Translations under genes and position numbers: made by a program
Source of the DNA: Chloroflexota bacterium
GTDB taxonomy: Bacteria; Chloroflexota; Dehalococcoidia; JACPQK01
Assembly (NCBI GenBank): GCA_016190505.1
Contig: JACPQM010000092.1
Span: 1-64,000, forward strand
DNA: 64,000 nucleotides
Reading direction: 5' to 3'
Shown: in pieces, positions 8,701 through 64,000 of the stretch
How positions within the stretch are numbered: position 1 is the stretch's first letter
Layout: each line of letters begins with the position of its first letter
The notes under the pieces: generated by a model
Database searches by the model: none
Seen by the model: the letters and a program-made list of their open reading frames with translations, nothing else
Told to the model about the DNA's origin: nothing

Positions 8701-9287
8701 TGCTCAAGGAGGTGCACCACCGGGTCAAGAACAACCTTCAGGTGATCTCCAGCCTGCTCGACTTGCAGGCCGGCTCCGTAGAAGACGAGGGGGTCCTACA
8801 CCTGTTCCGGGAGATGCAGAACCGGGTGCGCTCCATGGCATTGATCCACGAGCAACTGTACCGGGCGCCCGACCTGGCCAGGATCCAGTTTGACGTTTTC
8901 GCGCGGACGTTGACCAGTAACCTGTACCGGTCATGGGGTGTCAACTCTGATGTCATTGAACTCAGGGTGAACGTGGAGTATGTCCTGGTGCCTGTGGACA
9001 AGGCGGTCCCATTTGGGCTAATCATCAACGAGTTAGTGTCCAATGCTCTTAAACACGCTTTTCCAGACGGGCGGCATGGCGTAGTCAGTATTGACTTTTC
9101 CCTGGAACATGGTAGATTTTCCCTTGTGGTCAGGGATAATGGCGTCGGGGTGCCGGCAGATCTTAGTATTGAGGACGCCAGGACTCTTGGGCTCCAACTG
9201 GTGAACGCCCTTACCAGGCAATGCCGGGGCGTGATGGAGGTACACAGCGATGGTGGCACAGAGTTCAGGCTTACGTTCCCGGCCTAG
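5781..9287 (+). CDS. multi-sensor histidine kinase (Cache-HAMP-PAS-GAF-PAS-GAF-HisKA_2)
   Basis: This is a membrane sensor kinase of about 1168 residues. Order from the chosen start: TM1 (about 15-35), extracytoplasmic double-Cache-like sensor (about 40-280), TM2 (289-310), HAMP (312-365), PAS (370-490), GAF (503-665), PAS (675-790), GAF (795-955), then a HisKA_2-type core with [20 protein letters not shown]; the phospho-acceptor is His979 or His980. The ATPase domain has [20 protein letters not shown] and [10 protein letters not shown]. The two GAF units, each with its lead-in ([28 protein letters not shown]), are clearly an internal duplication. ATG 5781 is preferred since the 45 upstream codons are Gly/Pro-rich and precede the first membrane segment. 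It is paired with the regulator that follows. Confidence 0.93.
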
Positions 9288-9312: not shown

Positions 9313-9927
9313 GTGCCCAGCGCGCGCATCCTGGTTGTGGAAGACGAAAGCATAGTGGCCATGGACATCCAGACCCGCCTTGGCCGCTTGGGGTACTCGG
9401 TAGTGGGAGTTGCGGCGTCGGCGGAGGGTGCAATTGCCAAGGCGGGCGAGACCCGGCCTGACCTGGTGCTCATGGACATCAGGCTGGAGGGCGAAATGGA
9501 CGGGATCGAAGCCGCGGGGCGCATTCGCTCTGACTTCAACATCCCTGTGGTCTATGTCACCGCCTACGCTGATGAAGAGACCCTCCAACGGGCCAAAGTC
9601 ACCGAGCCGTTTGGCTACATCCTCAAGCCTTTCGAGACCCGCGAGCTGTTCACCACCATCGAGATGGGCTTATGCAAGCACAAGGGAGAGCAAGCGCTGC
9701 TGCAGAAGAACCAGGAGTTGGAGCAACGGGTCCTGGAGCTATCTGCGCTCAATACCATGTTCCAGCAGCATTTGGACTTGAGCTTCGACGCGGAAGAGCA
9801 CTACCGCGAGCTCCACGGTGCCGTGTGCACCTTTCTGGGAAGGTTGGGCGAGCTGACCGCCGAGCTGGAGGGAAAGAGCCAGGTGCAACCGTCTCCAACG
9901 CAGGTGGGGGACATGCAGGGCCAGTAG
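9313..9927 (+). CDS. response regulator, CheY-like with coiled-coil tail
   Basis: A receiver domain of about 125 residues ([15 protein letters not shown], phospho-Asp55 in VLMDIRL, VTAYAD, conserved Lys in [11 protein letters not shown]) is followed by a helical tail with heptad character ([20 protein letters not shown]) and no DNA-binding domain. Output is probably by protein contact or phosphorelay. This receiver type is the usual partner of HisKA_2 kinases. GTG 9313 is preferred, with GGGAGGAAAG just upstream; an in-frame ATG at 9250 would overlap the kinase gene. The TAG stop at 9925-9927 is part of the palindromic repeat that follows. Confidence 0.9.
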
Positions 9928-9993
9928 GGGCGAAGCATCCCGGCGTCAATGGACAGTCTTCGCCACCTGTGACTCGGGATGCTTCGCCCCTAC
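9924..9993. repeat. REP-like inverted repeat, GTAGGGGCGAAGCAT family
   Basis: Perfect 19-base arms GTAGGGGCGAAGCATCCCG (9924-9942) and its complement (9975-9993) enclose a 32-base loop. The left end supplies the TAG stop of the response regulator. A second copy of the same family lies at 58624-58693. It may also act as a terminator hairpin, but there is no T-run. Confidence 0.85.
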
Positions 9994-10047
9994 AAAACGG
10001 GTCACGTTTGACACCTCACTTCCCGTCTGGTAGCCTGAACGCGGGAG

Positions 10048-10950
10048 GTGGGATTGATTCTCCTCACGGGAGCGACGGGGTTTGTGGGCCGCAACGTGGC
10101 CAGTGCCCTGGTGGAGCGCGGCCACCGGCTGCGCTGTCTGGTGCGCCAGACCGCCAATCTGTCCCCGCTCAAGGGCCTGGACGTTGAGTTCGCCTACGGC
10201 GATGTCACTGACCCAGCCTCGCTGGCGCCAGCCACCAGTGGCGTGGACACCGTAATACACCTGGTAGCCATCATCCGCGAGAAAGGGGAATATACCTTTC
10301 GACGGGTGAACTTTCTGGGCACGGGGAACCTGGTGGAGGCGGCCAAGAACAGCGGCATCGGGGCATTCTTGCACATCAGCGTTATCGGGGCCAGCAGCGA
10401 TCCGCGCTACCCCTACCTCTATTCCAAGTGGCTGGGCGAGCAAGAGGTCATCAACAGCGGTATCCCTTACACCGTCTTCCGGTCGTCCCTAATCTTTGGG
10501 GAAGGGGACATCTTCTTCAACCAGTTGGCGCAGATTGTCCGCGTATATCCGGTAGTACCTGTTGTCGGGCCGGGAAAAGTGCGATTTCAACCAGTTTGGG
10601 TCAAGGATGTGGCCCGGGCTTTTGTGCAGGCGGTGGAGGGCAATGCGTTCAGAGGAAGGACGTTGTACCTTGGGGGGCCGGAGCACATCAGCTACGAGGG
10701 CATAATAGACGCGATAGTGGATACGCTCAAACTGCCGCGGTGGAAGGTGCACGTGCCTCTGGGCCTGGTCCGGCCTGCGGTGACCGCCATGGAGGCGCTG
10801 CTGCCGAACCCGCCGATCACCACCGTGGAGCTGGGCATGGTCTCCATTGACAACGTGACCGAGCCGGACGCGGTCGAAAAGGCCTTTGGCTTCCGCCCCG
10901 TGGGCTTCCGGGAGGCTGCTGGCTATCTGGTCTCCCGGAAAGGGAGATGA
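10048..10950 (+). CDS. NAD(P)-binding atypical SDR, NDUFA9/epimerase-like
   Basis: The Rossmann fold opens with LLTGATGFVGRNVASALVERG, and YSKWLGEQ follows in the second half of the NAD domain. The sequence pattern (FVQPVWVKDVA-like FQPVWVKDVARAFVQAV, YLGGPEHISYEGI) is that of atypical short-chain dehydrogenases related to the complex I NDUFA9 subunit and NAD-dependent epimerases. Substrate is unknown. Start may be GTG 10048 or TTG 10054; the latter has better spacing to GGGAGG. It is followed at 24 bases by folC. Confidence 0.82.
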   Translation: MGLILLTGATGFVGRNVASALVERGHRLRCLVRQTANLSPLKGLDVEFAYGDVTDPASLAPATSGVDTVIHLVAIIREKGEYTFRRVNFLGTGNLVEAAKNSGIGAFLHISVIGASSDPRYPYLYSKWLGEQEVINSGIPYTVFRSSLIFGEGDIFFNQLAQIVRVYPVVPVVGPGKVRFQPVWVKDVARAFVQAVEGNAFRGRTLYLGGPEHISYEGIIDAIVDTLKLPRWKVHVPLGLVRPAVTAMEALLPNPPITTVELGMVSIDNVTEPDAVEKAFGFRPVGFREAAGYLVSRKGR

Positions 10951-10974
10951 GAGGCACATAACCCGGGCCAAGGT

Positions 10975-12330
10975 ATGGACTACCGCCAGGCGCTAGCCTA
11001 CATCCACAGCTTCACTGATTTCGAGAAGTCCCCCGCGCTGCTCTACAACGCGGCCAACTATGATTTGCGCCGCATGGAGGCCCTCCTGGGCGCTCTGGGG
11101 CACCCGGAAAGGGAGGTCCCCACCGTCCACATCGCCGGCACCAAGGGCAAGGGGAGCACCGCGGCCATGATCGCCTCGGTGCTGACGGCGGCGGGCTACC
11201 GGACGGGGCTTTATACCTCGCCTCACCTCCATACCCTTCGGGAGCGAGTGCAGGTGGATGGCCAGCTCATCGCCGAGGCGGCGGTGGCTTCGCTGGTGGA
11301 ACGCCTGTCCCGACTCGTCGGGATGGACGTCATCCACCGCGACAGCAGCTACGGGCAACTCACCACCTTTGAGGTGCTTACCGCGCTGGCCTTCCTTCAC
11401 TTCCGCGAGCAGCGGGCCAGCTTCCAGGTTGTGGAGGCAGGCCTCGGGGGGCGCCTCGACGCGACCAATGTGGTCCGGCCCACGGTGGCGGTGGTTACCC
11501 CCATCAGCTATGACCACATGGATATTCTGGGGCATACGCTGGCTGAGATCGCCACACAGAAGGCGGGCATAATCAAGCCCGGGGCTGCGGTGGTGGTCGG
11601 CCCGCAGCCCGGAGAGGCGCTTGAGGTCCTTCTGGCCAGGTGCCAGGAGACCGGGGTCACGCCCATTCTGGTCGGCCAGGACGTCCGGTGGGCGCCGGGG
11701 GCCTTCGGTCTCACAGGCCAGGATGGGAACATCATGGGCCGGCTGCGCAAGTACGGTGTCCACATACCCCTGCTGGGACAGCACCAACTGGAAAACGCGG
11801 CGGTGGCGGTAGCGTGTCTTGAGGCGCTACAGGAGCAGGGCGTGACCATCGGCGGGCTGGCGTTGAGGCAGGGCTTGGCCTCAGTGCGCTGGCACGGGCG
11901 TCTGGAGGTCCTGGGCGAGCGGCCATGGCTAATTGTGGACGGCGCTCACAACGGCGATTCGGCGAAGCGGCTGCGGGAGGCCATCGAGGATTACTTCCCT
12001 GCGCGGAAGGTGGTCCTGGTCATGGGCGCATCCCGGGACAAGGACATGTCTGCCATCGCCCGGGAGCTGGCTCCGGTGGCCCAGGCGGTGGTGGTGACGC
12101 AGTCCCGAAACCCCCGGGCAGCCTCAGGGGAAAACCTGGCTGCGGTGTGGGCTGATCTGGGCTACGGTGCCCTGAAGACAGCCAGCGTGCCTGGGGCTGT
12201 AGAGGAGGGCCGCGCCCTGGCCGGCGCACAAGGGGTGGTGCTGGTCACCGGCTCGCTGTTTGTGGTGGCCGAGGCCCGGGAACACGTCCTGGGCTTGCTC
12301 TCCGAGGATGCCTGCGGAACCCCCCCGTAG
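10975..12330 (+). CDS. folC: bifunctional folylpolyglutamate/dihydrofolate synthase
   Basis: This Mur-ligase-fold enzyme adds glutamate to folates, and in many bacteria also makes dihydrofolate from dihydropteroate. Family landmarks are the P-loop VHIAGTKGKGSTAAMI, YTSPHLHTLRERVQVDG, QVVEAGLGGRLDATNVV, PISYDHMDILGHTL and VDGAHN. Length 451 is normal. Folate is the one-carbon acceptor of the glycine cleavage system encoded nearby. A TCCCGACTCGTCGGGA palindrome (about 11309-11324) lies inside the gene and is translated as part of LSRLVGM. The TAG stop lies at the edge of a palindromic repeat. Confidence 0.95.
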   Translation: MDYRQALAYIHSFTDFEKSPALLYNAANYDLRRMEALLGALGHPEREVPTVHIAGTKGKGSTAAMIASVLTAAGYRTGLYTSPHLHTLRERVQVDGQLIAEAAVASLVERLSRLVGMDVIHRDSSYGQLTTFEVLTALAFLHFREQRASFQVVEAGLGGRLDATNVVRPTVAVVTPISYDHMDILGHTLAEIATQKAGIIKPGAAVVVGPQPGEALEVLLARCQETGVTPILVGQDVRWAPGAFGLTGQDGNIMGRLRKYGVHIPLLGQHQLENAAVAVACLEALQEQGVTIGGLALRQGLASVRWHGRLEVLGERPWLIVDGAHNGDSAKRLREAIEDYFPARKVVLVMGASRDKDMSAIARELAPVAQAVVVTQSRNPRAASGENLAAVWADLGYGALKTASVPGAVEEGRALAGAQGVVLVTGSLFVVAEAREHVLGLLSEDACGTPP

Positions 12331-12390
12331 TCCCCCTTCGCAAGGGGGACAACAGGGGGTTACCAATACCGAAGGGGGACAACAGGGGGT
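12327..12390. repeat. hairpin and direct repeat between convergent folC and aldolase genes
   Basis: GTCCCCCTTCGCAAGGGGGAC (about 12330-12350) is a hairpin like that at 166-185. The 19-base sequence AAGGGGGACAACAGGGGGT occurs at 12342-12360 and again at 12372-12390. GTAG at 12327-12330 supplies the folC stop. It could serve as a bidirectional terminator. Confidence 0.7.
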
Positions 12391-43292: not shown

Positions 43293-45074
43293 ATGTCCCC
43301 ACGAAAAGCCGGTGCTCTGCTCGGCGTATTGGCGCTTCTGGTGGCTGCATGTGGACCAGCGGCCACAGCCATACCCACGGCCACAGCCACACCCACACCA
43401 ACTGTTTCAGGGGCGAGACCCACAGCCACAACAGTCCAGGCCACCGTTGCGCCCACACCGACAAAGGCGCAAGGGGTGACTGCTGCGGCGACGCCCACCT
43501 CAGCACCGTCGCCCAGTCCAGCCGCGGCCAAGCCGAAGTATGGTGGTGTGTTTCGCAACTACGTCATCAGGGACATAAGGTCCTGGGACTTGCAGAAGGA
43601 CCCGGGTTCCGACTACCCATTGCAGTACAGCCAGACGGCTGCTTTCAGTCGCCTGGTCCAGTGGGAGCATGCCAGCGCGGACTCTTGCAACAACCCCCTG
43701 GGCCTCAACCTCGCCGAGTCTTACAAGTTCGTGGACGACCGCACGCTGGAGGTGAAGATCAGGGGTGACGTACGTTTCCACAACAAGCCACCGGTCAACG
43801 GCAGGCTTCTCACCGCCGATGACGTCGTATTCAGCTTCAGACGCGCCAAAGAGGTGGGGCGCTCAGGTGCCATAACGCCTTATACAGCCCTTATGGAGAA
43901 GGTGGAGGCCACCGGGACGCTGACCGTTCGCTTCTATTTCACCGAGCCATACGCCATGGCGGTACAGACTTTGCTTGCCGCCAATATGGTGGCCTTCGTC
44001 CTGCCACCAGAGGCCGGGGGGCCAGGCCCAGATAAGGACTACGGCAATCCCAGCAAGACCTGGATTGGCACTGGCCCATTCATGTTCAAGGACCACGTCC
44101 CCGGGGTGAAGATCAGTTTCACCCGCAACCCCGACTACTTCAAGCCGGGGAAGCCCTATCTCGACGGCCTGGACCACATGATAATACCTGACCCGGCTAC
44201 CCAGAGCGCTTCTTTCATCTCGGGAAAGCTGGACGCGCAGCTGCGGGTGCCCCCCACCGTGGTGGACATGTACCGGAAGACACAGCCCAAGGTGGTTATC
44301 AGCGGCTGCCCATACTACGCTGGCTTCGGCACCATCTGGATCCGGACCGACAAAGCCCCGTTTAACGATGTCCGGGTGCGCCGTGCCCTGAATATGGCCA
44401 TAGACCGTCAAGCTATTATTGACACGCTGTTCTTGGGCGAAGGGGAGATACTCACCCTGGTACCCAGCCAATACGGTGGGTATTCACTGGCGCCCAAAGA
44501 CCTGCCGCCGGAGCTCCGACAGTATATCGAGTATCGCCCTGAGGAGGCCAAGAAGCTGCTGGCCGAGGCCGGTTTCCCCAATGGCTTCAAGACCACCCTG
44601 GAGACGACCCGTTCTTTCGGCTCACCATTCAACGAGTCGCAGGAAGCCATGATCGCCATGTGGGCCAAAGTGGGGATCAAGGTGGACCCCATTTGGTACG
44701 AGACGGGGCGGTACTCGGAGACCACGTTGCAGGGCAACTATGACAATCTGGGCTGGACGCGCTCGCAGCAGGCTTCGGACCCCTTTGCCCTGTCCTCCTT
44801 GCACAGCAAGTCAGAGTTCGGGTCCAACCGCAGCCACGTGGCCGATCCCGAGCTGGACAAGATAATCGAGAAGTACCGGGCGGCCTTCGACGTCAATGAC
44901 CAGATGCTCTACACCCGCCAAATCCAGGCTCGGGCTGTGGACCAGGCGTACGTGGTCCAGCAGCCCAATCAGTTGGAGTACGCTGCCCTCCACCCCTACG
45001 TGAAGGACTTTGGGCGCATGAGCCACCAGAGCCGCAGCGCGAACCTGTTCGAAAGGATGTGGTTCGACAAGTAG
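43293..45074 (+). CDS. extracellular solute-binding lipoprotein, family 5 (copy 1)
   Basis: This is an oligopeptide/nickel-type substrate-binding lipoprotein of 593 residues. The signal peptide ends in lipobox LVAAC, followed by a Pro/Thr/Ala-rich linker (about 20-80) and the SBP_bac_5 domain (YGGVFRNYVIRDIRSWDLQ; VRRALNMAIDRQAII; SSLHSKSEFGSNRSHVADPELD). No permease or ATPase genes are adjacent. Its twin follows at 45295. Substrate unknown. Confidence 0.92.
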   Translation: MSPRKAGALLGVLALLVAACGPAATAIPTATATPTPTVSGARPTATTVQATVAPTPTKAQGVTAAATPTSAPSPSPAAAKPKYGGVFRNYVIRDIRSWDLQKDPGSDYPLQYSQTAAFSRLVQWEHASADSCNNPLGLNLAESYKFVDDRTLEVKIRGDVRFHNKPPVNGRLLTADDVVFSFRRAKEVGRSGAITPYTALMEKVEATGTLTVRFYFTEPYAMAVQTLLAANMVAFVLPPEAGGPGPDKDYGNPSKTWIGTGPFMFKDHVPGVKISFTRNPDYFKPGKPYLDGLDHMIIPDPATQSASFISGKLDAQLRVPPTVVDMYRKTQPKVVISGCPYYAGFGTIWIRTDKAPFNDVRVRRALNMAIDRQAIIDTLFLGEGEILTLVPSQYGGYSLAPKDLPPELRQYIEYRPEEAKKLLAEAGFPNGFKTTLETTRSFGSPFNESQEAMIAMWAKVGIKVDPIWYETGRYSETTLQGNYDNLGWTRSQQASDPFALSSLHSKSEFGSNRSHVADPELDKIIEKYRAAFDVNDQMLYTRQIQARAVDQAYVVQQPNQLEYAALHPYVKDFGRMSHQSRSANLFERMWFDK

Positions 45075-45294: not shown

Positions 45295-47076
45295 ATGGCA
45301 GCAAGGAAGCTCGGCGCACTTCTAGGAGTGCTGGCGCTACTGCTGGCCGCCTGCTCATCGGCGGCACCCACGGCTACAACGGCGCCGACCGTTGCCGCGC
45401 CCCGGGCCACGGCCGCGCCAACTCCCACCACGGCCCCCGTGGCAACCGCGGTGGGCAAAGCAACCCCAGTGGCCCAGGCAACCCCGGTGGCTACGCCCAC
45501 CCAGGCGCCGTCGGGCAAGCCGGCTGCGGCAACGCCCAAGCAGGGTGGAGTGCTGCGCACCTTCGTGCCTTGGGACGTGCTGGTATGGGACCTCCAGAAG
45601 GAGCCCGGCCAGGCCTACCCCATGCAGTACTCCCAGACGGCGGTCTTCAGCCGCCTTGTCCAGTGGGAGCACGCCATGGCAGACACCTGTGGCAACCCGT
45701 TGGTCCTTAACGCCGCCGAGTCCTTCAACTACGTGGACGACAAGACCATGGAAGTGAAGCTCAGGCCCGACATACGCTTCCACGACAAGGCGCCGGTCAA
45801 TGGAAGGGCTGTCACTGCCGAGGACGTAGCCTTCAGCTTTAACCGGGCCAAGCAAGTGGCCATATCCGGGTCCATCACCCCGGCACTGAAGTACCTGGAC
45901 AAGGTTGAGGCTACTGGTCCGCTGACTGTCCGGTTCCTTTTCAACTCCCCCTATTCCATGGCCCCGATGACCTTGCTTGCCTCCAACATGGTGTCCTTCA
46001 TCCTGGCTCCGGAGGCTGGTGGTGCCGGGCCGGAGAAGGACTACAGCAACCCGGACAAGAACTGGATCGGCACCGGCCCGTTCCTGTTCAAAGAGTGGCG
46101 GCCCGGAGTGAAGATAGTCTTCTCCAGGAACCCCAACTACTTCAGGAAGCCCCAACCCTACCTGGAGGGCCTGGAGGTCATAACCATACCGGATGCCGGT
46201 ACCCAGTTCGCTGCGTTTACCGCCGGGAAACTGGACATGTTGCTCCGGGCGGCGGGCCCGATAGTGGAGAACATCCGCAGTACCCGCCGGGACGTGCAGA
46301 TCAATGGCTGTCCATACTATGCCGGCTTCGGTACCTTCTGGATGCGCAACGACAAACCACCCTTTGACGACATACGGGTGCGCCGGGCGTTGAACATGGC
46401 TGTGGACCGGAAAGCCATGATAGACTCCCTGTTTAGCGGTGATGGGGAGGTGCTGGTGGCTGTATCCACCATCTGGGATGCCTTCTCTGTAAAACCCAGT
46501 GAACTACCCTCAGACCTGCAGAAGTACCTCGAGTACCGGCCCGATGAGGCCAAGAAGCTCTTGGCCGAGGCTGGATACCCCAATGGCTTCAAGGCAACCC
46601 TGGAGACTACAAGGCAGTTCGGCTCGCCGTTCAATGAGTCCCAGGAGGCGTTCATCGCCATGATGGCCAAGGTTGGCGTGACCGTGGAGGGCAAGTGGTA
46701 CGAGCGGGGTCAGTTCTCCAGCGGGCCGCTCCAGGGAAAATACGATGACATAGGCTGGACCCGCTCCGCAGAGGTGGGACAGCCCGACCTGCTCGGCTCA
46801 CTTCACAGCAAGAGCCCCATAGGCGCCAACCGGAGCCGGGTCAACGACCCGGAGATGGACAAGCTGGTGGACCAGTATTCGGCGGCCTTCAAGACCGAGG
46901 ACCGCATCAAGCTGGCCCGCCAGATACAGGTCAGGGCGGTGGACCAGGCGTACTTCATTCAGTTGCCCACGCCCCTGGAGTACGCGGTGCTCCAGCCCTA
47001 TGTGCGGGACTTCGGCCGCATGAGCCACATGAGCCGCAGTGCCTCCTTCTACGATAGGGTCTGGTTTGACAAGTAA
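45295..47076 (+). CDS. extracellular solute-binding lipoprotein, family 5 (copy 2)
   Basis: A tandem paralogue of the preceding gene, also 593 residues. Lipobox LLAAC and a Pro/Thr/Ala linker precede the SBP domain (QGGVLRTFVPWDVLVWDLQ, VRRALNMAVDRKAMID, GSLHSKSPIGANRSRVNDPEMD). The C-terminal FGRMSHMSRSASFYDRVWFDK matches copy 1 closely. AGGAGG precedes ATG 45295. A terminator-like hairpin follows. Confidence 0.92.
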   Translation: MAARKLGALLGVLALLLAACSSAAPTATTAPTVAAPRATAAPTPTTAPVATAVGKATPVAQATPVATPTQAPSGKPAAATPKQGGVLRTFVPWDVLVWDLQKEPGQAYPMQYSQTAVFSRLVQWEHAMADTCGNPLVLNAAESFNYVDDKTMEVKLRPDIRFHDKAPVNGRAVTAEDVAFSFNRAKQVAISGSITPALKYLDKVEATGPLTVRFLFNSPYSMAPMTLLASNMVSFILAPEAGGAGPEKDYSNPDKNWIGTGPFLFKEWRPGVKIVFSRNPNYFRKPQPYLEGLEVITIPDAGTQFAAFTAGKLDMLLRAAGPIVENIRSTRRDVQINGCPYYAGFGTFWMRNDKPPFDDIRVRRALNMAVDRKAMIDSLFSGDGEVLVAVSTIWDAFSVKPSELPSDLQKYLEYRPDEAKKLLAEAGYPNGFKATLETTRQFGSPFNESQEAFIAMMAKVGVTVEGKWYERGQFSSGPLQGKYDDIGWTRSAEVGQPDLLGSLHSKSPIGANRSRVNDPEMDKLVDQYSAAFKTEDRIKLARQIQVRAVDQAYFIQLPTPLEYAVLQPYVRDFGRMSHMSRSASFYDRVWFDK

Positions 47077-49978: not shown

Positions 49979-50043
49979 TAGGGGCGCTCCTGGGTGTGCG
50001 CCCTCGGGGGGACGGGGGGCAGACACGCCGGTCTGCCCCTACG
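49979..50043. repeat. double palindrome supplying MmgE/PrpD stop
   Basis: GTAGGGGCGC at about 49979 opens the block. GGGGCAGACACGCC/GGTCTGCCCC at its right end is a hairpin repeated at about 51483-51506. CTA at 50039-50041 is the TAG stop of the minus-strand gene. Confidence 0.8.
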
Positions 50044-51427
50044 GCTCTGATGCTGACAGGATGTCCGTAAGCTCGCGGACGTCTGGTACCTGGTCCAGGG
50101 CAAGCACCAGCTCGCTGCTGCGCTGGATGTCCGCCGGGTCGAGCAGGTGCTGGGCGCAGTCCCTGTACTTCCCGAGCACGTGTTCATCGCTCAAAGGTTG
50201 TGCTGGGTCTCCGCGGAGGACGTCCACCCGGTTGCTGTAGCTCCGGCCATCCACGGTGCGCACGGTCACGGGGTTGCCCACGAACACGGTGCCGGGGCCG
50301 ACGTCCGCCGAGCCAGGCCAGATGGGCAGGTACGGGCGGGACATGGTGACCTTTTGCATGGCGTGCACGATCTGGGCATCGTGCAGCTTCACAGCGGCGA
50401 AGGTGTCCAGCGTCAGCCGGCGGTCCACCAGGGCAGCAGCGATGCAGAAGGGCATGCTGAACATGGCCTCGTAGGGAGTTGCGGGATCATGGAAGGGGAG
50501 TACGTGTAGCGCCCTTTCCGACATGCCTACGTCTACCCCGGCGATGTCGCCGTCGGTAAGGCTGTGCTCATCCATTATCTTGAACAGAGCGTCTATGGCC
50601 CTGTGGGCATGCAGACCACAGGGGTATTTCTTGAGGCCGATGCCCGGTGACACGATGTAAAAGGGGTTGCCCAGATCTCTCGACATCCCTTCCGTATCGT
50701 AGCGCCCGGGCCCCACCAGGGTCTCGCAGAAGCCGTTCCTGGCCTCGATGATGCCGGGGTTGGCGGTGACGCCCTCTCGGGACATCAGGGCAGCCACCAC
50801 TCCGCTGCGGCCGGCGTTGCCCGCCCCTACGGGGACGAGCATAGTGCCGTGGTTGGCTGTCAGGCCGCAGGCCAGGTTGGCCGCGATGCCCAGGGCCATC
50901 CTGGTCTGGCGGACATCCAGCCGCAGGAGCCTGGCGCAAGCGGCGGCGGCCCCCAGGGAGCCGTACCAGCTCATCTGGTTCAGGCTCCGCTCCAGGCGCT
51001 TGTAGTCGCCATGGAGGGCCACCTTGCCCTCTACCTCCAGTCCCAGGACATAGGCGGTAAGCACCTCACGGCCTGAGGCCCGGAGCCAGTCACCCAGGGC
51101 GAGCACGGCGGGGAGGACCATGACGCAGGGATGGCCTGTTCGCATCCCGTAGGGATCGTAGTCCAGGGCGTGGGCCATGGTGCCGTTGGCCAGGGCGGCA
51201 TCGGCCACCTCGGTACGGAAGCCTCCGCCAATAACGGAGGCCTGGGGCGGGCTGCCCAGGGTCTTGACATAATGCACCACTGCCTGGCTGCCCGGCTCGC
51301 TGGAGCCAGCCATCGCCGCCGCCAGCGTGTCCAATGCGGTGCGCTTGGCCAGGTCTATGGCCTGGCGAGGTATGTCCTCGAAGGTGGTTTGTACCAGAAA
51401 TTGGGCGATCTTCTCGGTAGCACCCAT
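50039..51427 (-). CDS. MmgE/PrpD family protein (second copy)
   Basis: From ATG 51427 (GAGGAA upstream on its strand; 462 residues): MGATEKIAQFLVQTTFEDIPRQAIDLAKRTALDTLAAAMAG split over the family start, TMAHALDYDPYGM (HALD), and KKYPCGLHAHRAIDALF (active-site region). Close paralogue of the next gene on the same strand; long stretches of the last 100 codons are nearly identical at the base level. Substrate unknown. Confidence 0.9.
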   Translation of the reverse strand: MGATEKIAQFLVQTTFEDIPRQAIDLAKRTALDTLAAAMAGSSEPGSQAVVHYVKTLGSPPQASVIGGGFRTEVADAALANGTMAHALDYDPYGMRTGHPCVMVLPAVLALGDWLRASGREVLTAYVLGLEVEGKVALHGDYKRLERSLNQMSWYGSLGAAAACARLLRLDVRQTRMALGIAANLACGLTANHGTMLVPVGAGNAGRSGVVAALMSREGVTANPGIIEARNGFCETLVGPGRYDTEGMSRDLGNPFYIVSPGIGLKKYPCGLHAHRAIDALFKIMDEHSLTDGDIAGVDVGMSERALHVLPFHDPATPYEAMFSMPFCIAAALVDRRLTLDTFAAVKLHDAQIVHAMQKVTMSRPYLPIWPGSADVGPGTVFVGNPVTVRTVDGRSYSNRVDVLRGDPAQPLSDEHVLGKYRDCAQHLLDPADIQRSSELVLALDQVPDVRELTDILSASEP

Positions 51428-51472
51428 GGCGCATTCCTCATTATTACGTGGCAATGGCGCGTAGGCTTCGCG

Positions 51473-51511
51473 TAGGGGTGTGGGGGCAGACACGCCGGTC
51501 TGCCCCTACGC
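51473..51511. repeat. palindrome between the two MmgE/PrpD genes
   Basis: GTAGGGGTGTGGGGGCAGAC and GTCTGCCCCTAC form the arms; the inner hairpin equals that at about 50018-50041. CTA at 51506-51508 is the TAG stop of the third MmgE/PrpD gene. Confidence 0.8.
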
Positions 51512-52903
51512 CTGCCTCCCGTGTGACGCCATCAGGATGTCCATGACCTGCCGGATGTCCTCCACCTGGTCCAGGGCAAGCACCAGCTCGCTGCTGCGCT
51601 GGATGTCCGCCGGGTCGAGCAGGTGCTGGCCGCAGTCCCGGTACTTGGCGAGCAGATCGGTGTCGCTCAAGGGCTTCTCCGGGTCGCCGCGTAAGATGTC
51701 CACCCGGGCGCTGAAGGTCCTGCCATCCCTGGTGCGCACACTCACCGGATTGCCCACGAACACGGTGTCGGGGCCTACGTCGGCCAGCCCAGGCCAGATA
51801 GGCACGTTCGGGAAAGAGAGGTGCACTTTCTTGCGGGCCTCTACGATGCGCGCGTCGCTCAGCTTCTCCGGCGTGAACGTGCCCAGCGACACCTTGCGGT
51901 CTACCATGGCCGCCGCGATGCAGTGGGGCATACTGAACTTGGCCTGATAGGGCGTGCCTGGCTCGGAGTAGGCGAGCACCCGCAATGCCCGCTCCGAGGT
52001 GCCCACGTCCACTTCGGCGATATCCTTGTCGCCGAGGTCATGCTCGGCCATGAGCTGGAACATGGCGTCCAGCGCCCGGTGGGTGTGATAGCAGCTCGGG
52101 TATTTCTTGATCCCGATGCCGGGTGAAACGATGTAGAACGGGTTGCCCAGGCCGTCAGCCAAGTGGTCGGTGTGATAGTTTCCCGGCCCGACCAGAGTGT
52201 ACAGGAAACCACTTTTTGTCTCGATGATGTCGGGGTTGGCGGTGATGTTCTCGCGGGCCATGAGGGCAGCCACCACCCCATTGCGGCAGGCATTGCCGGC
52301 GCTCATAGGGGCGATCATCGTGCCGTGGCTAGCGGACACCCCACAGGCGAAGTTGGCGGCGAGGCCCAGGGCGTGCCTGGTCTGGTTGGCGTCGAGGCGG
52401 AGTAGCCTGGCGCAGGCGGCTGCGGACCCCAGGGTCCCGTACCAGGACTGGTTGTTGAGGCTGCGCTCCATGAGCTTGAAGTCGGCATGGAGGGCTACCT
52501 TGCCCTCCACCTCCAGTCCTACGATGTAGGCGGTGAGCACTTCCCGGCCCGAGGCGCCGAGCTGGTCGCCCAGGCTGAGCAACGCGGGCAGGACCATGAC
52601 GCTAGGGTGGCCCATCTTCATGCCGCAGTCGTCGTAGTCCAAGGCATGTGCAATGCAACCGTTGGCCAGGGCGGCATCGGCCACGGCAGCCCGGAAACCT
52701 CCGCTGACGATGGAGGCCTGGGGCGGGCCGCCCAGGTTCTTGACATAACGGGTGATAGCCAGGCTTCCGGGCTCGGCGGTCCCGGCCAGGGCTGCCGCCA
52801 GCGTATCCAGGGCGGTGCGCTTGGCCAGCTCCACCGCCTGTCGAGGTATGTCCTCAAAGGTGGTCTGGGCCACAAACTGGGCGATCTTCTCTGTTGTACC
52901 CAC
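51506..52903 (-). CDS. MmgE/PrpD family protein (third copy)
   Basis: From GTG 52903 (AAGGAGGAA upstream on its strand; 465 residues): TTEKIAQFVAQTTFEDIPRQ, CIAHALDYDDCGMKMGHPSV (HALDYDD intact), KKYPSCYHTHRALDAMF. The tandem copy at 50039-51427 is clearly a duplication. The upstream in-frame stretch overlaps the transposase gene and is not used. Reaction: a dehydratase or decarboxylase of a small polycarboxylate is the family expectation. Confidence 0.9.
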   Translation of the reverse strand: MGTTEKIAQFVAQTTFEDIPRQAVELAKRTALDTLAAALAGTAEPGSLAITRYVKNLGGPPQASIVSGGFRAAVADAALANGCIAHALDYDDCGMKMGHPSVMVLPALLSLGDQLGASGREVLTAYIVGLEVEGKVALHADFKLMERSLNNQSWYGTLGSAAACARLLRLDANQTRHALGLAANFACGVSASHGTMIAPMSAGNACRNGVVAALMARENITANPDIIETKSGFLYTLVGPGNYHTDHLADGLGNPFYIVSPGIGIKKYPSCYHTHRALDAMFQLMAEHDLGDKDIAEVDVGTSERALRVLAYSEPGTPYQAKFSMPHCIAAAMVDRKVSLGTFTPEKLSDARIVEARKKVHLSFPNVPIWPGLADVGPDTVFVGNPVSVRTRDGRTFSARVDILRGDPEKPLSDTDLLAKYRDCGQHLLDPADIQRSSELVLALDQVEDIRQVMDILMASHGRQA

Positions 52904-52952
52904 GGTGTATTCCTCCTTGGCGCTTGTTAGGCGGGCCCTACCACAATCTCCT

Positions 52953-53525
52953 TCAGGTGAGCCACGCGTCCTCCGGTTCCGGTCCGACGGCCGCTGGGTT
53001 CTCGGGATCAAATGTCCAACGGGCCGGATTGTTGGCAATGTATTGGCGGATGTGGTGTAGGGACGCTTCGTTGCGGATGATGTGTTCGTAGTAGTTGCGT
53101 TGCCAGACAGGCAGGCCCGGTGCAACTCTAACGACATTGATACGTTTGGTCGTCGCCGACTTGAACCCGCGGACAATCGCGCCGACGGTCTGTGATGGCG
53201 AGCGAAACGTAGGGGCGTATTGCGTAGGGGCGTATTGCAATACGCCCCTACGTTCGCCAATTATTACAACGATGGCATGGAAATGGTTGGGCATGACTAC
53301 GTATTCGTCCAATACCGCTTGCGGGCGTAGTTGTGGTGTATTCAGCCATTGGCTCTCGATGGCAAGGCCGGCGGAGTTTGGGCTCATGCCGCCGTTCACG
53401 ATTTCCCCAAACAAGCATTCCCTGTCATGCGCAACGATGGTCAAGAAATACGCCCCGGCCTGTGCGTAGTCATATCCTGGTAGGCGAATTGAACGACGGT
53501 GGTAGCCTTCAAGAACAGCGCTCAT
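52953..53525 (-). CDS. REP-associated tyrosine transposase (RAYT)
   Basis: This Y1_Tnp/HUH single-strand transposase-like protein has RRSIRLPGYDYAQAGAYFLTI, the HUH motif VVMPNHFHAIVVI, and the late Tyr segment VWQRNYYEHIIRNE, with a final IRQYIANNPARW. RAYTs act on short palindromic REP sequences. It is flanked by, and contains, GTAGGGGCGTATTG palindromes; the internal copy is translated as RRGVLQYAPTQYAPT. ATG 53525 is chosen; GTG 53540 is also possible. It is probably the source of the REP family dispersed in this window. Confidence 0.93.
   Translation of the reverse strand: MSAVLEGYHRRSIRLPGYDYAQAGAYFLTIVAHDRECLFGEIVNGGMSPNSAGLAIESQWLNTPQLRPQAVLDEYVVMPNHFHAIVVIIGERRGVLQYAPTQYAPTFRSPSQTVGAIVRGFKSATTKRINVVRVAPGLPVWQRNYYEHIIRNEASLHHIRQYIANNPARWTFDPENPAAVGPEPEDAWLT
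53208..53252. repeat. REP palindrome inside the transposase gene
   Basis: A perfect 30-base palindrome (53223-53252; arm CGTAGGGGCGTATTG) is preceded by an extra half-copy at 53208-53222. It is in frame with the transposase. Confidence 0.9.
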
Positions 53526-58840: not shown

Positions 58841-60343
58841 ATGAAGACTCTGAACAGGCGAGATTTCCTCAAGTACGCCATGGGCGGCACTGCCGTGCTA
58901 TTGGTGGGCAGCAAGCTGGGCTGGATGCTGAAAAGCCCCGGGCAGGTTGCTGCCGCTAGCCAGACCATCAACCTGCGCATCACCGATGCCATGAAGGAGA
59001 TGGTGACCCATAACGCTGTCAACCCCGCCCGGTGCTACTTCTGGGTGTACAAGAGCGTTGTACCCGACTACCTGCCCGAGGTCCCGGGTCCAATTATCAT
59101 GGCGACCAAAGGAGACCAGGTAGGCATCACCATAACTAATGCCCTGGACGAGCCTCATGCCTTCTACATCCCGGGCATCTTCGACAGCGCCACGGTGGGG
59201 CCAGGCGGCCCCATACAACCGGGCGAGACCCGCACCGGCACCATAGACCTGACCAACGCACCGTCCGGCGCCCACCTCTACTACGACAACCTGAATGGCC
59301 CGGTGAACCGGATGATGGGGCTTCACGGCACTTTGATCGTCATGCCCACGGCGGCGGCTGCCGGGCACAAGTTCACCCCGTATGACAGTCCGACCCTTGC
59401 CGTGCAGAAGCTGTTCGACGATTTCGGGCCTACCGCCCACTTCCCCGGCCTGGCCTGGGAGGAGGGTGACAGTACCCCCTGGGCACTGGACCCCGCCATG
59501 CCCAACACCACCCCTTTCCGGCAGTACGTCTGGCTGACGCACCAGGCCAGCCCCAAGCTGTTCGCCGAGGTGGGGGACTACACTGCCGGACAGGACTACC
59601 CGGCTGAGGAGTTCATGGAGAAGTTCCTGCGGGGACCGTTCAAGGTCAACAACAGCCGGGTGAGCACCGACCCCGCCTACACGCCGCAGTTCTTCACCAT
59701 CAACGGCCAGTCCGGGATGTTCGCCCACTTCAGCCCGTACCTTACCCCCATAGGCCGCGTAGGTGAGCCGGTGGTGGTCCACATCCTGAACGCCGGGCTG
59801 TGGACCCATTCCATGCACCTTCATGCCAATCACATGTACATTACTTCCGTCAACGGCGAGGTCCAGGAGAACCCCATCTGGGTGGATGTCTACAACATCC
59901 ACCCCATGGACAGGGTTGACTACACCGTGCCCGTCACCAGGCCGCCGGACGTGCCCAACGCCCGGGGCATCGGCTTCCCAGACACCCCCTTGACCACCAT
60001 CAACGGCCACCCGGTCTGGCCGCCCGTTGAAGAGATGAATGTGTACATGCCGCCCAAGGGGACCAAGGCCAAAGCCGCCGATGGGGTTACCGATGTTGAA
60101 CTGGGGCAGCGGATGTCGCCCCTGTGTTTCCCCATGCACGACCACTCCGAGCCTTCCCAGACCGCCCAGGGCGGCAACTACAACAATGGGCTTATCGCCG
60201 GCATCTACTACACCGGCGACCGGAACACCCCCGGCCATTTCGACTTCCCCATGGAGGAGGACTTCCTCATGGCCTATCAGAACATCCGTGGTTGCATCGA
60301 GACAGAGCGGGCAGCCCCACCCCTGGGGGAGGAGCACCACTAA
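58841..60343 (+). CDS. Tat-exported multicopper-oxidase-like protein
   Basis: The Tat signal NRRDFLKYAMGGTAVLLVG leads a 500-residue protein with cupredoxin domains. The distal domain keeps HSMHLHANH (His323, His326, His328), and the C-terminal motif is CFPMHDHSE (Cys429, Met432, His433, His435), which departs from the usual HCHxxxH. The N-terminal domain has lost the HWHG and HxH pairs (EPHAFYIPG, HLYYDN). ATG 58841 has GGGGGGACC upstream. The next gene carries the missing first-domain motifs, so the two may work as one oxidase. Confidence 0.85.
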   Translation: MKTLNRRDFLKYAMGGTAVLLVGSKLGWMLKSPGQVAAASQTINLRITDAMKEMVTHNAVNPARCYFWVYKSVVPDYLPEVPGPIIMATKGDQVGITITNALDEPHAFYIPGIFDSATVGPGGPIQPGETRTGTIDLTNAPSGAHLYYDNLNGPVNRMMGLHGTLIVMPTAAAAGHKFTPYDSPTLAVQKLFDDFGPTAHFPGLAWEEGDSTPWALDPAMPNTTPFRQYVWLTHQASPKLFAEVGDYTAGQDYPAEEFMEKFLRGPFKVNNSRVSTDPAYTPQFFTINGQSGMFAHFSPYLTPIGRVGEPVVVHILNAGLWTHSMHLHANHMYITSVNGEVQENPIWVDVYNIHPMDRVDYTVPVTRPPDVPNARGIGFPDTPLTTINGHPVWPPVEEMNVYMPPKGTKAKAADGVTDVELGQRMSPLCFPMHDHSEPSQTAQGGNYNNGLIAGIYYTGDRNTPGHFDFPMEEDFLMAYQNIRGCIETERAAPPLGEEHH

Positions 60344-60409
60344 TAGGTGGGTAGGTCGGGTTCGCTAACCCGATGCGCCAGGCCGGCGGACTGATTAAGG
60401 AGAAGGACG

Positions 60410-62455
60410 ATGTCAGCCACAAATCCAGAGTTTGGCGGTTCGGACCCCAACAAACCAGCGATACCTCGCCAGTCGGTGGTGGGCATGGAGGGGATGTGGG
60501 TCAAGATGTTCGACCCGCCCACCGATAGTCCCCCTACGCCCGACAAGGTGGCCCCCACCAACCCGGTGCCCGAGGTAATGGCCGCGGCGGGTTTTCAGAT
60601 CACGCCCAGTGTGCCCCATACCGTGGTGCGCGACCTGCAGCACAGCCAGGACATGGCTACCTGGGACGCCCGCCCCGGCGGCATGAACTTCATGCTTATC
60701 CGGGCTGGGGACAATCCGGCGGCCGTGGGGACGTTCCCTGGGCCTACTCTTCGGGTGCCCAGGGGCGTGGTGTTCCACGGAGGCGTCCAGGGCCACAGCC
60801 CGCCGCCGCACACCATCCACTGGCACGGCATCGAGCCTACTCCCATCAACGACGGGGTGGGGCACTGCTCCATGGAGGTGGGCCACTACACCTACCAGTG
60901 GCAGCCCAACTTCATGGGCTTCTACTTCTACCACTGCCACCGGAACACGGTGCAGCACTTCGAGTTCGGCCTGTACGGCGCCCTGCTCATAGACCCGCCG
61001 GACGCCTTCTTCGCCACCCAGTGGAACCCGGCCATCGCCATCGGCGCCTGCCGGGACGGCAAGCGCCGGGTGGCGGCCAACCTCAGCAACATCCGCGGTC
61101 CCACGGGTGGCGGAGTACCCCTGCGCCCCACCAGCGGGGCCGGATTCGAGGGTGACATCATCCCGAACCCGTTCCCAGGGTTCAACGGAAACCTGCTTAC
61201 CGCGCCGGACCCGGAAGGACAGAACCCCGATCTTCCGGGCTACCTCAAGTTTCCCACGGACCCCCACGCCATGACCGTCCCCTATGACGTGGAGGCGCTG
61301 TGGGTGGTGGACGACCGCGACTCCAGGTGGAGCGACCTGGCGAAAAACGCCAAGGCCACCTACCCCAGGTACGGCAGCATACCGGGTGTTAACGACAACT
61401 TTGCTGGCAACGCTGGCAGCGGTCTCAATGCCGACGGTTTCTTTGCCTTCAACGACTTCCATTCCGATTACTATTACGTCACCGGAGTTCCGGTGCCGGC
61501 GGCGCGGGCGGACAGGGGTGGGACCGGCGTGGGCACCATCCCCGGGGGGATAGTGATCCCGCCGGCCCTGAATAGTGGCGTCAGCGGGACGCAGGTGTCC
61601 ATCAACGCCGAGACAGGACAGAGCGTCCTGGTGCGCTGCCTCAATGCGGCCTACAACTGCGTGGCCTGGAGCTTCCCGGTGGACATCGTGGTCATCGCCT
61701 GGGACGGGCGGGCGCTGGGCGTGCCGCCCTTCGGGGAGTACAACCACGCCTACAAGGTGCCCGCGGGCACGCGCATCCATGCCAGTGTGGCCCGGCGCTT
61801 CGATGCGCTGATCAGGTCGGACGTGCCCGTGGATGCACTGGCCACGGTGGAGTTTATTGATACCCGGGGCCAGGTCCCGGGCTTCCCCGAGCAGGTGCTG
61901 ATGACCGCCAGGATACCTGTGGTGATCACAAATGCGCCGGCGGGAGCCATCTCGGGCACGGTGACCAAAGACTCCAGCTCGGTGTTCTCCGGAGTCACCA
62001 TCACCCTCACCGGGCCTGTCACCAGGACCACGGTGACCGACGAGGACGGCAACTACAGCCTGGTCGGGCTGCCCAACGGCAACTACACGGCTACCGCCTC
62101 CTTCCCCAACAAGGCGTTCACGCCAGCCAGCGCTGATGTGACCATTGGCGGCACCCCTGTAACCGGCGTCGACTTCGTCAAGGCGGCGCCTGCGGGGGCT
62201 TACTCCATCACCGGCACGGTGCTCGGAAAAGGGAAGGGAACGCCCGTCCAGGGCGTCCAGGTGAACCTCATCGGTCCCGTCAACTGCATCGCCGTCACCG
62301 ATTACTTCGGCGGATACAGCTTCACCGGCCTGCCCGACGGCCGCTATACGGTGGTGCCTTCCCACCAGGACCTGAGGTTCCGCCCGCGACAGAGGAAGGT
62401 GAGAGTCAGAAGCGGTGACCAGAACGCCCAGCACTTCAACGCCAGAGAGCTGTAG
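60410..62455 (+). CDS. multicopper-oxidase-like protein with two carboxypeptidase-regulatory-like domains
   Basis: The 681-residue protein has cupredoxin copper motifs HTIHWHG (His134, His137, His139) and FYHCHRNTVQHFEFG (His175, Cys176, His177, His183; five residues between HCH and His instead of three). A second cupredoxin domain (about 360-515) lacks ligands. Two beta-sandwich repeats follow: GAISGTVTKDSSSVFSGVTI and YSITGTVLGKGKGTPVQGVQ. No signal peptide is seen, so export could be by hitchhiking on the Tat-exported neighbour 66 bases upstream. AAGGAGAAGG precedes ATG 60410. Confidence 0.83.
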   Translation: MSATNPEFGGSDPNKPAIPRQSVVGMEGMWVKMFDPPTDSPPTPDKVAPTNPVPEVMAAAGFQITPSVPHTVVRDLQHSQDMATWDARPGGMNFMLIRAGDNPAAVGTFPGPTLRVPRGVVFHGGVQGHSPPPHTIHWHGIEPTPINDGVGHCSMEVGHYTYQWQPNFMGFYFYHCHRNTVQHFEFGLYGALLIDPPDAFFATQWNPAIAIGACRDGKRRVAANLSNIRGPTGGGVPLRPTSGAGFEGDIIPNPFPGFNGNLLTAPDPEGQNPDLPGYLKFPTDPHAMTVPYDVEALWVVDDRDSRWSDLAKNAKATYPRYGSIPGVNDNFAGNAGSGLNADGFFAFNDFHSDYYYVTGVPVPAARADRGGTGVGTIPGGIVIPPALNSGVSGTQVSINAETGQSVLVRCLNAAYNCVAWSFPVDIVVIAWDGRALGVPPFGEYNHAYKVPAGTRIHASVARRFDALIRSDVPVDALATVEFIDTRGQVPGFPEQVLMTARIPVVITNAPAGAISGTVTKDSSSVFSGVTITLTGPVTRTTVTDEDGNYSLVGLPNGNYTATASFPNKAFTPASADVTIGGTPVTGVDFVKAAPAGAYSITGTVLGKGKGTPVQGVQVNLIGPVNCIAVTDYFGGYSFTGLPDGRYTVVPSHQDLRFRPRQRKVRVRSGDQNAQHFNAREL

Positions 62456-62506: not shown

Positions 62507-64000
62507 ATGAAATCGAGGCTACCGGCCATCGCAGCAGTGTTCCTGGTCCTGACGTCGTTACTACCTATCACGGCGCCCGCCCAGGCCCAGTCGGCGCCGC
62601 AGATAACCCTGGTGCACCCGGCGCTATCCGCGGTGCAGTTGGGCAGCGGAGCGCCCAACGTCATCAGCGTGTCCGTTTCCTCACCGGGCTCCACCATTAC
62701 CTCGGCGGAGTACCAGTTCCTGTTCGGGGAACCGGCGACCACCATGGTGGCCACCGAGGTGTTCGCCCAGCAACCCGGGCTGTCCGTCGTACCAGAGCCC
62801 ACGGCGGGGGTGGGCGCCACGGCGGACAACACGGCTATACCCCAGGGGGTGCCCCAGGACTCCATAGTCGAGATGGTCATCTGGGGTACAGTCACCGGGG
62901 TGAACTCCGCCACCGGCGAGTGGCGGATCGGCACTCCGCCGGTGTTGGTCTATGAAAGCCAGTCCACCAACCGGCAGGGCAACCCGGCGGTGGGCGACGC
63001 GGTCAGGGTGCAGGCCGTCCGGACGCTGGCACCGGGGCCCATCGTGGCCAGCGTCGTCAGCCGGCTGGCTGGCGGTGTCTCCACCACCGCACCCACCATA
63101 GACGTGTCGTTCCTGGTCAACGGTACTGTCCAGTCCGTCCAGACTCCTGTGCAGTCTGCCGGCATCAAAGTCGGGGGGACCACCTGGACCATGGGGACCG
63201 CAGCCTTCCGCACCGATGCCCCGAGCTCCCCCGCCTTCATTGACCAGGGTGTGGGACCGAACTCTGCGGTCACCATGCGGTTCACGACAGCAACCGCTGG
63301 AGGGGCTATTAACACGGCCCTGGAGATCTCCGCCCAGGAAACAGCAAACCTGACCCCCGTGCATCCCAACCCCGTGGCCAACAGCGAGCTTTCACCCCTC
63401 GACCTACCGGCCGGCGCCTGGAGGCAGTCCGAGATCGCGGGTGTGGTTTCTGGTGCCAACGCCAACGGCGAATGGCTGATCGGCACTCCCCCCGTTGCTG
63501 TATACGAGCACGCCGCCACCCAGTTCAGCGGCTCCAGGTTGCCCACGGTGGGTGACGAGGTCCGCATCCTGGCCAACCGCACGGCGGCGCCGGGCCCCCT
63601 GGTGGCTGCCAGGATAGACTTCCGAAGAGGCGGGCCACTGGCCCAGGCCCCGGCCTCGGTATCCAGCACGCTCCTCTTCAACGGGACCGTTCAGGCCACC
63701 GGGGCTGACACCTGGACAGTCGGCGGCGCCAGCTTCGCGGTGAGTGAGGCGGACATACGCTCCGGGGTGGGCATGGGCAGCGCGGTAACGGTGGAGTTCA
63801 CCTCTGCGGGGCCGCTGCCACCGGACGAGGCCCGCTGGGCGCCCCTGGCCCTGGACCCGGCCACCGGGCGGCGTAGCGCCGTGCTCAGCGTTCCCGCGGT
63901 GAACGCCGACCGGGCTGGCACCCTGTTCCTGCGGGCCTCCAACGCCCAGCAGCAGGTCACTACCACTGTGCTCGCCGCCAGCCTGCTGGCTGTGCCGGCG
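62507..64000 (+). CDS. secreted DUF5666-type repeat protein, partial
   Basis: From ATG 62507 (AGGAGGAGAGGG upstream) the frame stays open to the window end (at least 498 residues). A signal peptide (LPAIAAVFLVLTSLLPITAPAQAQ) is followed by repeated modules of the DUF5666 kind: GTVTGVNSATGEWRIGTPPV, NGTVQSVQ...GGTTWTMG, GVVSGANANGEWLIGTPPV, NGTVQATGADTWTVGG, with GDxVRVxA/RIxA returns. Function unknown; it follows the copper proteins by 51 bases and may be cosecreted with them. C-terminus beyond the window. Confidence 0.8.
   Translation, partial: MKSRLPAIAAVFLVLTSLLPITAPAQAQSAPQITLVHPALSAVQLGSGAPNVISVSVSSPGSTITSAEYQFLFGEPATTMVATEVFAQQPGLSVVPEPTAGVGATADNTAIPQGVPQDSIVEMVIWGTVTGVNSATGEWRIGTPPVLVYESQSTNRQGNPAVGDAVRVQAVRTLAPGPIVASVVSRLAGGVSTTAPTIDVSFLVNGTVQSVQTPVQSAGIKVGGTTWTMGTAAFRTDAPSSPAFIDQGVGPNSAVTMRFTTATAGGAINTALEISAQETANLTPVHPNPVANSELSPLDLPAGAWRQSEIAGVVSGANANGEWLIGTPPVAVYEHAATQFSGSRLPTVGDEVRILANRTAAPGPLVAARIDFRRGGPLAQAPASVSSTLLFNGTVQATGADTWTVGGASFAVSEADIRSGVGMGSAVTVEFTSAGPLPPDEARWAPLALDPATGRRSAVLSVPAVNADRAGTLFLRASNAQQQVTTTVLAASLLAVPA

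Follow-up and report, generated by a model that had tools for sequence, protein, structure and literature searches.

In other multicopper oxidases (MCOs), to our knowledge, a single gene product supplies every copper ligand, even where the trinuclear copper cluster (TNC) lies between identical subunits. The type-1 copper of the type-C enzymes belongs to the N-terminal domain (PMC13151041). Two-domain laccases form homotrimers, and their active site lies where two monomers meet (PMC3192119). Here we describe two adjacent genes, P1 and P2, at positions 58841–60343 and 60410–62455 of a 64,000-nucleotide stretch of the genome of a Chloroflexota bacterium (contig JACPQM010000092.1; the window), which jointly hold exactly the ligands of one MCO active site. 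A type-C enzyme is a one-gene homotrimer in which every chain has all the ligands, whereas the ligand sets here lie on two different proteins. Very probably, P1 and P2 are the obligate subunits of a single heteromeric MCO whose TNC forms between them, P2 being exported by hitch-hiking on the twin-arginine translocation (Tat) signal of P1. The features of the two genes are as follows.

58841–60343, plus strand: P1, a Tat-type two-cupredoxin subunit with half of the TNC and no type-1 copper (sequence, Pfam and 76 aligned homologues)
58841–58952, plus strand: Tat signal peptide of P1 (MKTLNRRDFLKYAMGGTAVLLVGSKLGWML...; sequence, with Pfam TAT_signal slightly under the cut-off)
58964–59356, plus strand: P1 domain 1 (Cu-oxidase_3), without TNC motifs; H106, Y147, D149, R157 and H162 conserved
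59678–60226, plus strand: P1 domain 2, bearing half of the TNC (Pfam, PDB alignment and homologue alignment)
59816–59824, plus strand: P1 H326-x-H328 in HSMHLHANH, two TNC histidines (invariant, 76/76)
60137–60145, plus strand: P1 H433-x-H435 in MHDHSE, two TNC histidines, followed by E437 (75/76 with one gap; aligns with FHDHVD of 2ZWN)
60410–62455, plus strand: P2, a two-cupredoxin subunit without a signal peptide, with the type-1 copper and half of the TNC
60617–61009, plus strand: P2 domain 1 (Cu-oxidase_3; Pfam and PDB alignment)
60809–60826, plus strand: P2 H134-T-I-H137-W-H139, with H134 as type-1 ligand and H137 and H139 as TNC ligands (76/76)
60851–60853, plus strand: P2 D148, the Asp of DGV that usually lies in the second sphere of MCOs (76/76)
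60932–60958, plus strand: P2 H175-C176-H177...H183, two TNC histidines with the type-1 Cys and His, and axial L188 (76/76)
61277–61924, plus strand: P2 domain 2, ligand-free
61949–62428, plus strand: two CarboxypepD_reg domains at the P2 C-terminus, present in only some homologues as judged by P2 length (Pfam)

P1 consists of 500 amino acids from the ATG at 58841 and P2 of 681 amino acids from the ATG at 60410, and the coordinates and both frames given in an earlier reading of the DNA without database searches (the sequence-only reading) were correct. That reading had stated that P1 retains HxxHxH without HWHG, and in P1 domain 2 we found THSMHLHANH, a motif of the HxxHxH type, and in domain 1 HAFYIPG in place of HTIHWHG and YYDN in place of YHCH. 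P2 had been described as having HWHG and HCH and a second domain free of ligands, in agreement with the protein: domain 1 carries HTIHWHGIEPTPINDGVG and HCHRNTVQHFEFGLYG, with the HTIHWHG and HCHRNTVQH motifs, and in domain 2 HxH was neither present in the window protein nor conserved among the aligned homologues. The pair had been credited with most of the ligands. The sets are indeed complementary, but H433 and H435 of P1 had been overlooked; as H433-D-H435 is also retained, all eight TNC histidines are present, four on each protein. P2 holds in addition a complete type-1 site (H134, C176 and H183, with axial Leu188), which lies entirely within its domain 1, since HTIHWH also fits HxxHxH. 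The signature of the superfamily, four HxH motifs (eight histidines) and a type-1 Cys-His2 site, is found in the pair or in a natural fusion of the two (L116, described below), and in neither protein alone. The acids that we take to act in the second sphere of the MCO site seem to be divided too: D148 of P2, whose role we presume from Fet3p and CueO, was found in all 76 homologues, and E437 of P1, two residues past the last histidine, in 74 of 76.

The 76 aligned homologues of P1 share not only these histidines but also the twin arginines of the signal (76/76), and in the 76 aligned P2 proteins H134, H137, H139, H175, C176, H177 and H183 are all invariant. As the divided ligands are near-invariant in both sets, the split is not due to chance. 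P2 homologues reached through P1 (L126–L128) retain the histidine pattern as HTIHHHG. At the axial position of the type-1 site, 66 of the P2 homologues have Leu and 10 have Met. An axial Leu suggests a high type-1 potential, so that of P2 is probably high. Domain 1 of P1 (59156–59326) is also conserved despite having no MCO motifs: H106 in 75/76, Y147, D149 and R157 in 76/76 and H162 in 73/76, with D149 occupying the expected position of the type-1 Cys. These residues possibly form another metal site or serve at an interface.

The same conservation bears on the idea that P1 and P2 work apart as degenerate MCOs without a TNC, with P2 as a type-1 electron carrier and P1 as a copper-binding or structural protein. 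Each protein alone has four TNC ligands, with which no homomeric cluster is possible; a homotrimer of P1 or of P2 would miss half of the cluster ligands. Copper-handling genes (SCO1, CusA/CusB) also lie near some of the loci. However, separate roles would not require the near-invariance of the four histidines of P1 and the four TNC histidines of P2, and the P1 and P2 genes invariably occur as a pair, in some cases fused, which makes this explanation improbable.

For both P1 and P2, sequence places the type-C two-domain MCOs 3G5W from Nitrosomonas europaea and 2ZWN, a metagenomic laccase, nearest among solved structures. These enzymes likewise consist of a cupredoxin pair with the type-1 copper in domain 1, which corresponds here to P2. 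Two cupredoxin domains per chain were recognized from PDB matches and AlphaFold2, and Pfam detected the first domain in both proteins (Cu-oxidase_3) and the second in P1 (Cu-oxidase_2); in P2 the remaining Pfam matches were the two C-terminal CarboxypepD_reg domains. A type-1 copper site in the N-terminal domain, as in type C, is present in P2 (76/76) and absent from P1, and the eight TNC histidines are not in one chain but four per protein. Domain 2 of 2ZWN also has His-Asp-His, as in P1, so the absence of Cys from P1 is the normal type-C state. When L116 was aligned with 3G5W, domain 1 of 3G5W matched the P2 half and domain 2 the P1 half, indicating that the working pair of type-C domains is here spread over two proteins, each with a dead domain.

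Domain 1 of both P1 and P2 also matches NirK-like proteins, and the pair might associate as a nitrite-reductase-like or other non-oxidase enzyme with one catalytic interface copper rather than a TNC. The interface copper of NirK is bound by three histidines, whereas all eight TNC histidines, the Asp of DGV and the Glu after HxH are retained here; we regard this possibility as still slightly more remote than that of separate roles. The three-domain laccases and CueO do not correspond either. Their motif order (in one chain, HWHG and HxH of domain 1 followed by HxxHxH and HCHxxxxH of domain 3) differs from that of the fusion, HLH, HCH, HWH, HCH, and the NCBIfam CueO and laccase models scored far under their cut-offs.

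Pairing of the two genes was examined with a P2 profile, which was run against 84,980 species genomes and gave 79 loci in several bacterial phyla. P1 was directly upstream of P2 throughout, save at contig ends or in fused genes. Both profiles were also run against 23 whole genomes, where every full-length P1 had an adjoining P2 (39/39, one of them fused), and the few unpaired matches were fragments at contig ends. Using P1 only, we searched 97 Geobacterales genomes and obtained matches in 11, with P2 adjoining the full-length P1 in 12/12 cases and a single weak 83-bit match near a contig end without an adjoining P2. Genomes with either gene alone had been named in the sequence-only reading as what would refute its idea of an inter-subunit active site, and in the genomes and loci examined no full-length P1 or P2 without its partner was found; ligand complementarity, strict pairing and natural fusions all support that idea. 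The trees of P1 and P2 agree as well, with a distance correlation of 0.90 against at most 0.20 in 200 permutations, and with 26/43 and 26/38 of the well-supported splits in common.

A P1 search of 400 Chloroflexota genomes gave no strong match beyond the genome of the window; the P2 profile scan nevertheless caught the pair in many Chloroflexi metagenome-assembled genomes. The genome itself has a second, diverged pair with the same split (contig 36, 20063–22433; 6064–8434 in locus L006), 44% identical to the window pair in P1 and 39% in P2. In Indioceanicola, the pair is found on two replicons (plasmids), annotated, where annotations are given, as 'hypothetical protein' and 'multicopper oxidase domain-containing protein'. 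Seven copies of the pair are present in the single genome of Skermanella aerolata KACC 11604 (L101–L110). Many of the hosts belong to lineages with a known part in metal cycling, among them groundwater Chloroflexota and Geobacteraceae.

In the window, P1 and P2 are in one frame and separated by 66 bp, as might be expected if the split were a frameshift or assembly artefact of one long gene. However, in-frame TAA, TAG and TGA codons lie between the genes, P2 has its own good ribosome-binding sequence (AAGGAG), and the frames differ at most other loci; on these grounds a single frameshifted gene was ruled out. The artefact explanation is untenable because the arrangement recurs in 70 pairs, finished chromosomes included, and we give it practically no weight.

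Natural fusions of the pair were also found. The deltaproteobacterial L116 is an 858-amino-acid frame with P1 and P2 fused, a Tat signal and all eight histidines, and three more distant fused proteins occur in Arthrobacter. In a profile comparison, P1 and P2 were homologous over 243 columns (98.9%, E 2e-17), in keeping with an old duplication, and the duplicated gene may have been a single type-C gene. Overall, we consider it likely that the pair represents a widespread and undescribed family of heteromeric MCOs, in which two gene products form the TNC through complementary ligand loss after duplication of a type-C-like gene, and which has been fused at least once. Among the Arthrobacter relatives (L109, L113, L118 and L133), which are fused or overlapping and have no recognisable Tat motif, one is plasmid-borne, with an Nramp metal transporter nearby.

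The Tat motif of P1 is MKTLNRRDFLKY. A strict Tat-like pattern was detected in 67/76 P1 homologues (mean of 1.1 in shuffled controls) and in 0/76 P2 homologues, so a twin-arginine signal is on one partner only, as in a hitch-hiker pair. No signal peptide was found on P2, whose open frame reaches just 5 codons upstream of the ATG. The Tat pattern was used instead of a hydrophobicity scan, which separated P1 and P2 poorly. The sequence-only reading had proposed folded co-export from a Tat signal on P1 and none on P2; the sequences fit this, and the co-export itself is what we infer. Hitch-hiking of P2 would agree with these signals and also with an interface site that has to be assembled before the proteins are exported. 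A heteromeric MCO in which P2 does not hitch-hike, staying in the cytoplasm or taking another route, would be consistent with the lack of a Tat-like signal on every P2 and with some relatives that have no Tat motif on the P1 part as well. The twin arginines in all P1 homologues, the fusion L116, which sets P2 behind a Tat signal, and the C-terminal CarboxypepD_reg domains of the window P2, which are typical of extracytoplasmic proteins, argue against it, and we consider it unlikely, though less so than the other alternatives.

AlphaFold2 was run on the window pair as one chain, in which P1 was joined to P2 through about 23 translated intergenic codons with the stops read through, and on the natural fusion L116. 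The predicted local distance difference test score (pLDDT) was 88 and the predicted template modelling score (pTM) 0.92 for the window pair, and 90 and 0.90, respectively, for the fusion, so that P1 and P2 are placed at high global confidence. The Foldseek matches were multidomain MCOs. For the fusion, the query-normalised template modelling score (TMq) was about 0.51 with both MnxG and ceruloplasmin, and against the type-C chain 3G5W the target-normalised score (TMt) was 0.73 with a root-mean-square deviation of 2.9 Å (TMt range for 3G5W, 0.72–0.73).

Ceruloplasmin and factors V and VIII are likewise made of several fused cupredoxin domains, and the natural fusion aligns with them at a TMq of about 0.45–0.52. 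They have six cupredoxin domains per chain, factor VIII being cut later, and the ceruloplasmin cluster is located where domains 1 and 6 meet. In the present case, by contrast, two genes supply four domains, and the cluster is predicted to lie between domains two and three. MnxG, which was the best structural match of the fusion, belongs to the Mnx complex (MnxEFG, the Mn(II) oxidase of Bacillus; 9BXA), which is also a heteromeric bacterial MCO. MnxG is the sole MCO gene of its operon, and MnxE and MnxF are accessory proteins of about 12 kDa (PMC5622069). Unlike P1 and P2, they are not halves of an oxidase. OmpB of Geobacter, which contains a fibronectin III domain (PMC5566968), and MofA of Leptothrix, both compared by description only, are MCOs of metal-cycling bacteria with accessory domains, but each is encoded by a single gene. 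The heterodimeric fungal laccases of the POXA3 type are two-subunit laccases by name; their small subunit is not one half of a cupredoxin protein and bears no cluster ligands.

If P1 and P2 form a heteromeric MCO, each would derive from the type-C two-domain fold, without the ligands of the opposite domain. The TNC would be bound at the interface by domain 2 of P1 (H326, H328, H433 and H435) and domain 1 of P2 (H137, H139, H175 and H177), parallel to the two-domain homotrimers, whose cluster is formed between domains of neighbouring subunits, yet with one site per P1-P2 pair. In the active, copper-loaded enzyme, electrons from the substrate would enter at the type-1 copper of P2 (H134, C176, H183 and the axial Leu) and reach the cluster by way of the His-Cys-His bridge, and O2 would be reduced to water there. 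The dead domains probably act as a scaffold, like the middle domain of laccase. The complex would fold in the cytoplasm and leave through Tat, P2 riding on the P1 signal. Candidate substrates are a reduced metal ion (Cu(I), Fe(II) or Mn(II)) or a phenol.

Several points weigh against this proposal. The invariance of H137, H139 and D148 is partly circular, as the stretches containing them were within the P2 search bait; the remaining P2 ligands were outside it. One P1 and one P2 cannot close the six-domain ring of a two-domain MCO trimer. The intergenic codons that join the window pair may bias the arrangement in its model, and pTM alone is no proof of an interface; the high values are reported and are not used as proof. 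A Tat motif could not be recognised in the Arthrobacter fusions or in the split pair L133, so not all members of the wider family are exported.

The gene that follows the pair begins about 50 bp after P2 and has homologues close downstream at 9 loci.

62507–64000, plus strand: probable third operon gene, encoding a secreted or surface protein of 833 amino acids, extending beyond the window end (weak DUF5666/fn3 matches and a C-terminal membrane anchor)

The pair is followed by two surface-type proteins (6508–9009 and 9539–12364 in locus L005; from 62507 onward in the window), with weak DUF5666/fn3 matches and four PKD domains, which are very similar to each other in their C-terminal tails and membrane anchors. 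Molybdopterin oxidoreductases are encoded near the window pair, and a molybdopterin oxidoreductase gene is close to the second pair of the genome, on the opposite strand. Of 81 loci, 16 have diheme MauG-like proteins among the neighbours, about 10 have SCO1-like proteins and 9 have CusB-like proteins. Diheme MauG/cytochrome c peroxidase-like neighbours were observed at L043, L055, L061, L094, L108 and others, and SCO1-like proteins are encoded immediately downstream of the pair in Skermanella. A looser cluster of MauG-like neighbours (24 loci) was dropped as other proteins were mixed in. The MauG-like and SCO1-like proteins and the Cus efflux parts suggest, but do not prove, a chemistry of copper or other metals, and the substrate cannot be named from these neighbours because their occurrence is too patchy. 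Elsewhere in the window, two adjoining MmgE/PrpD-family genes with similar domain scores lie on the minus strand at 50039–53260, and two consecutive open frames of equal length (593 amino acids; 43293–45074 and 45295–47076) are possibly tandem duplicates.

In summary, two genes share the ligands of one active site, a division that has been kept across phyla. Unlike in the two-domain MCOs, the inter-subunit cluster here would be heteromeric, with complementary ligand loss. A search of open-licence papers for split, heteromeric or four-domain MCOs found nothing relevant. The enzyme would escape automatic annotation, in which its halves appear as 'multicopper oxidase domain-containing protein' or 'hypothetical protein', and also surveys that require four motifs per chain. 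Because unfused and fused forms coexist, the family offers a natural test of how ceruloplasmin-like multi-domain MCOs may have originated from two-domain ancestors: by duplication, loss of opposite ligands and fusion.

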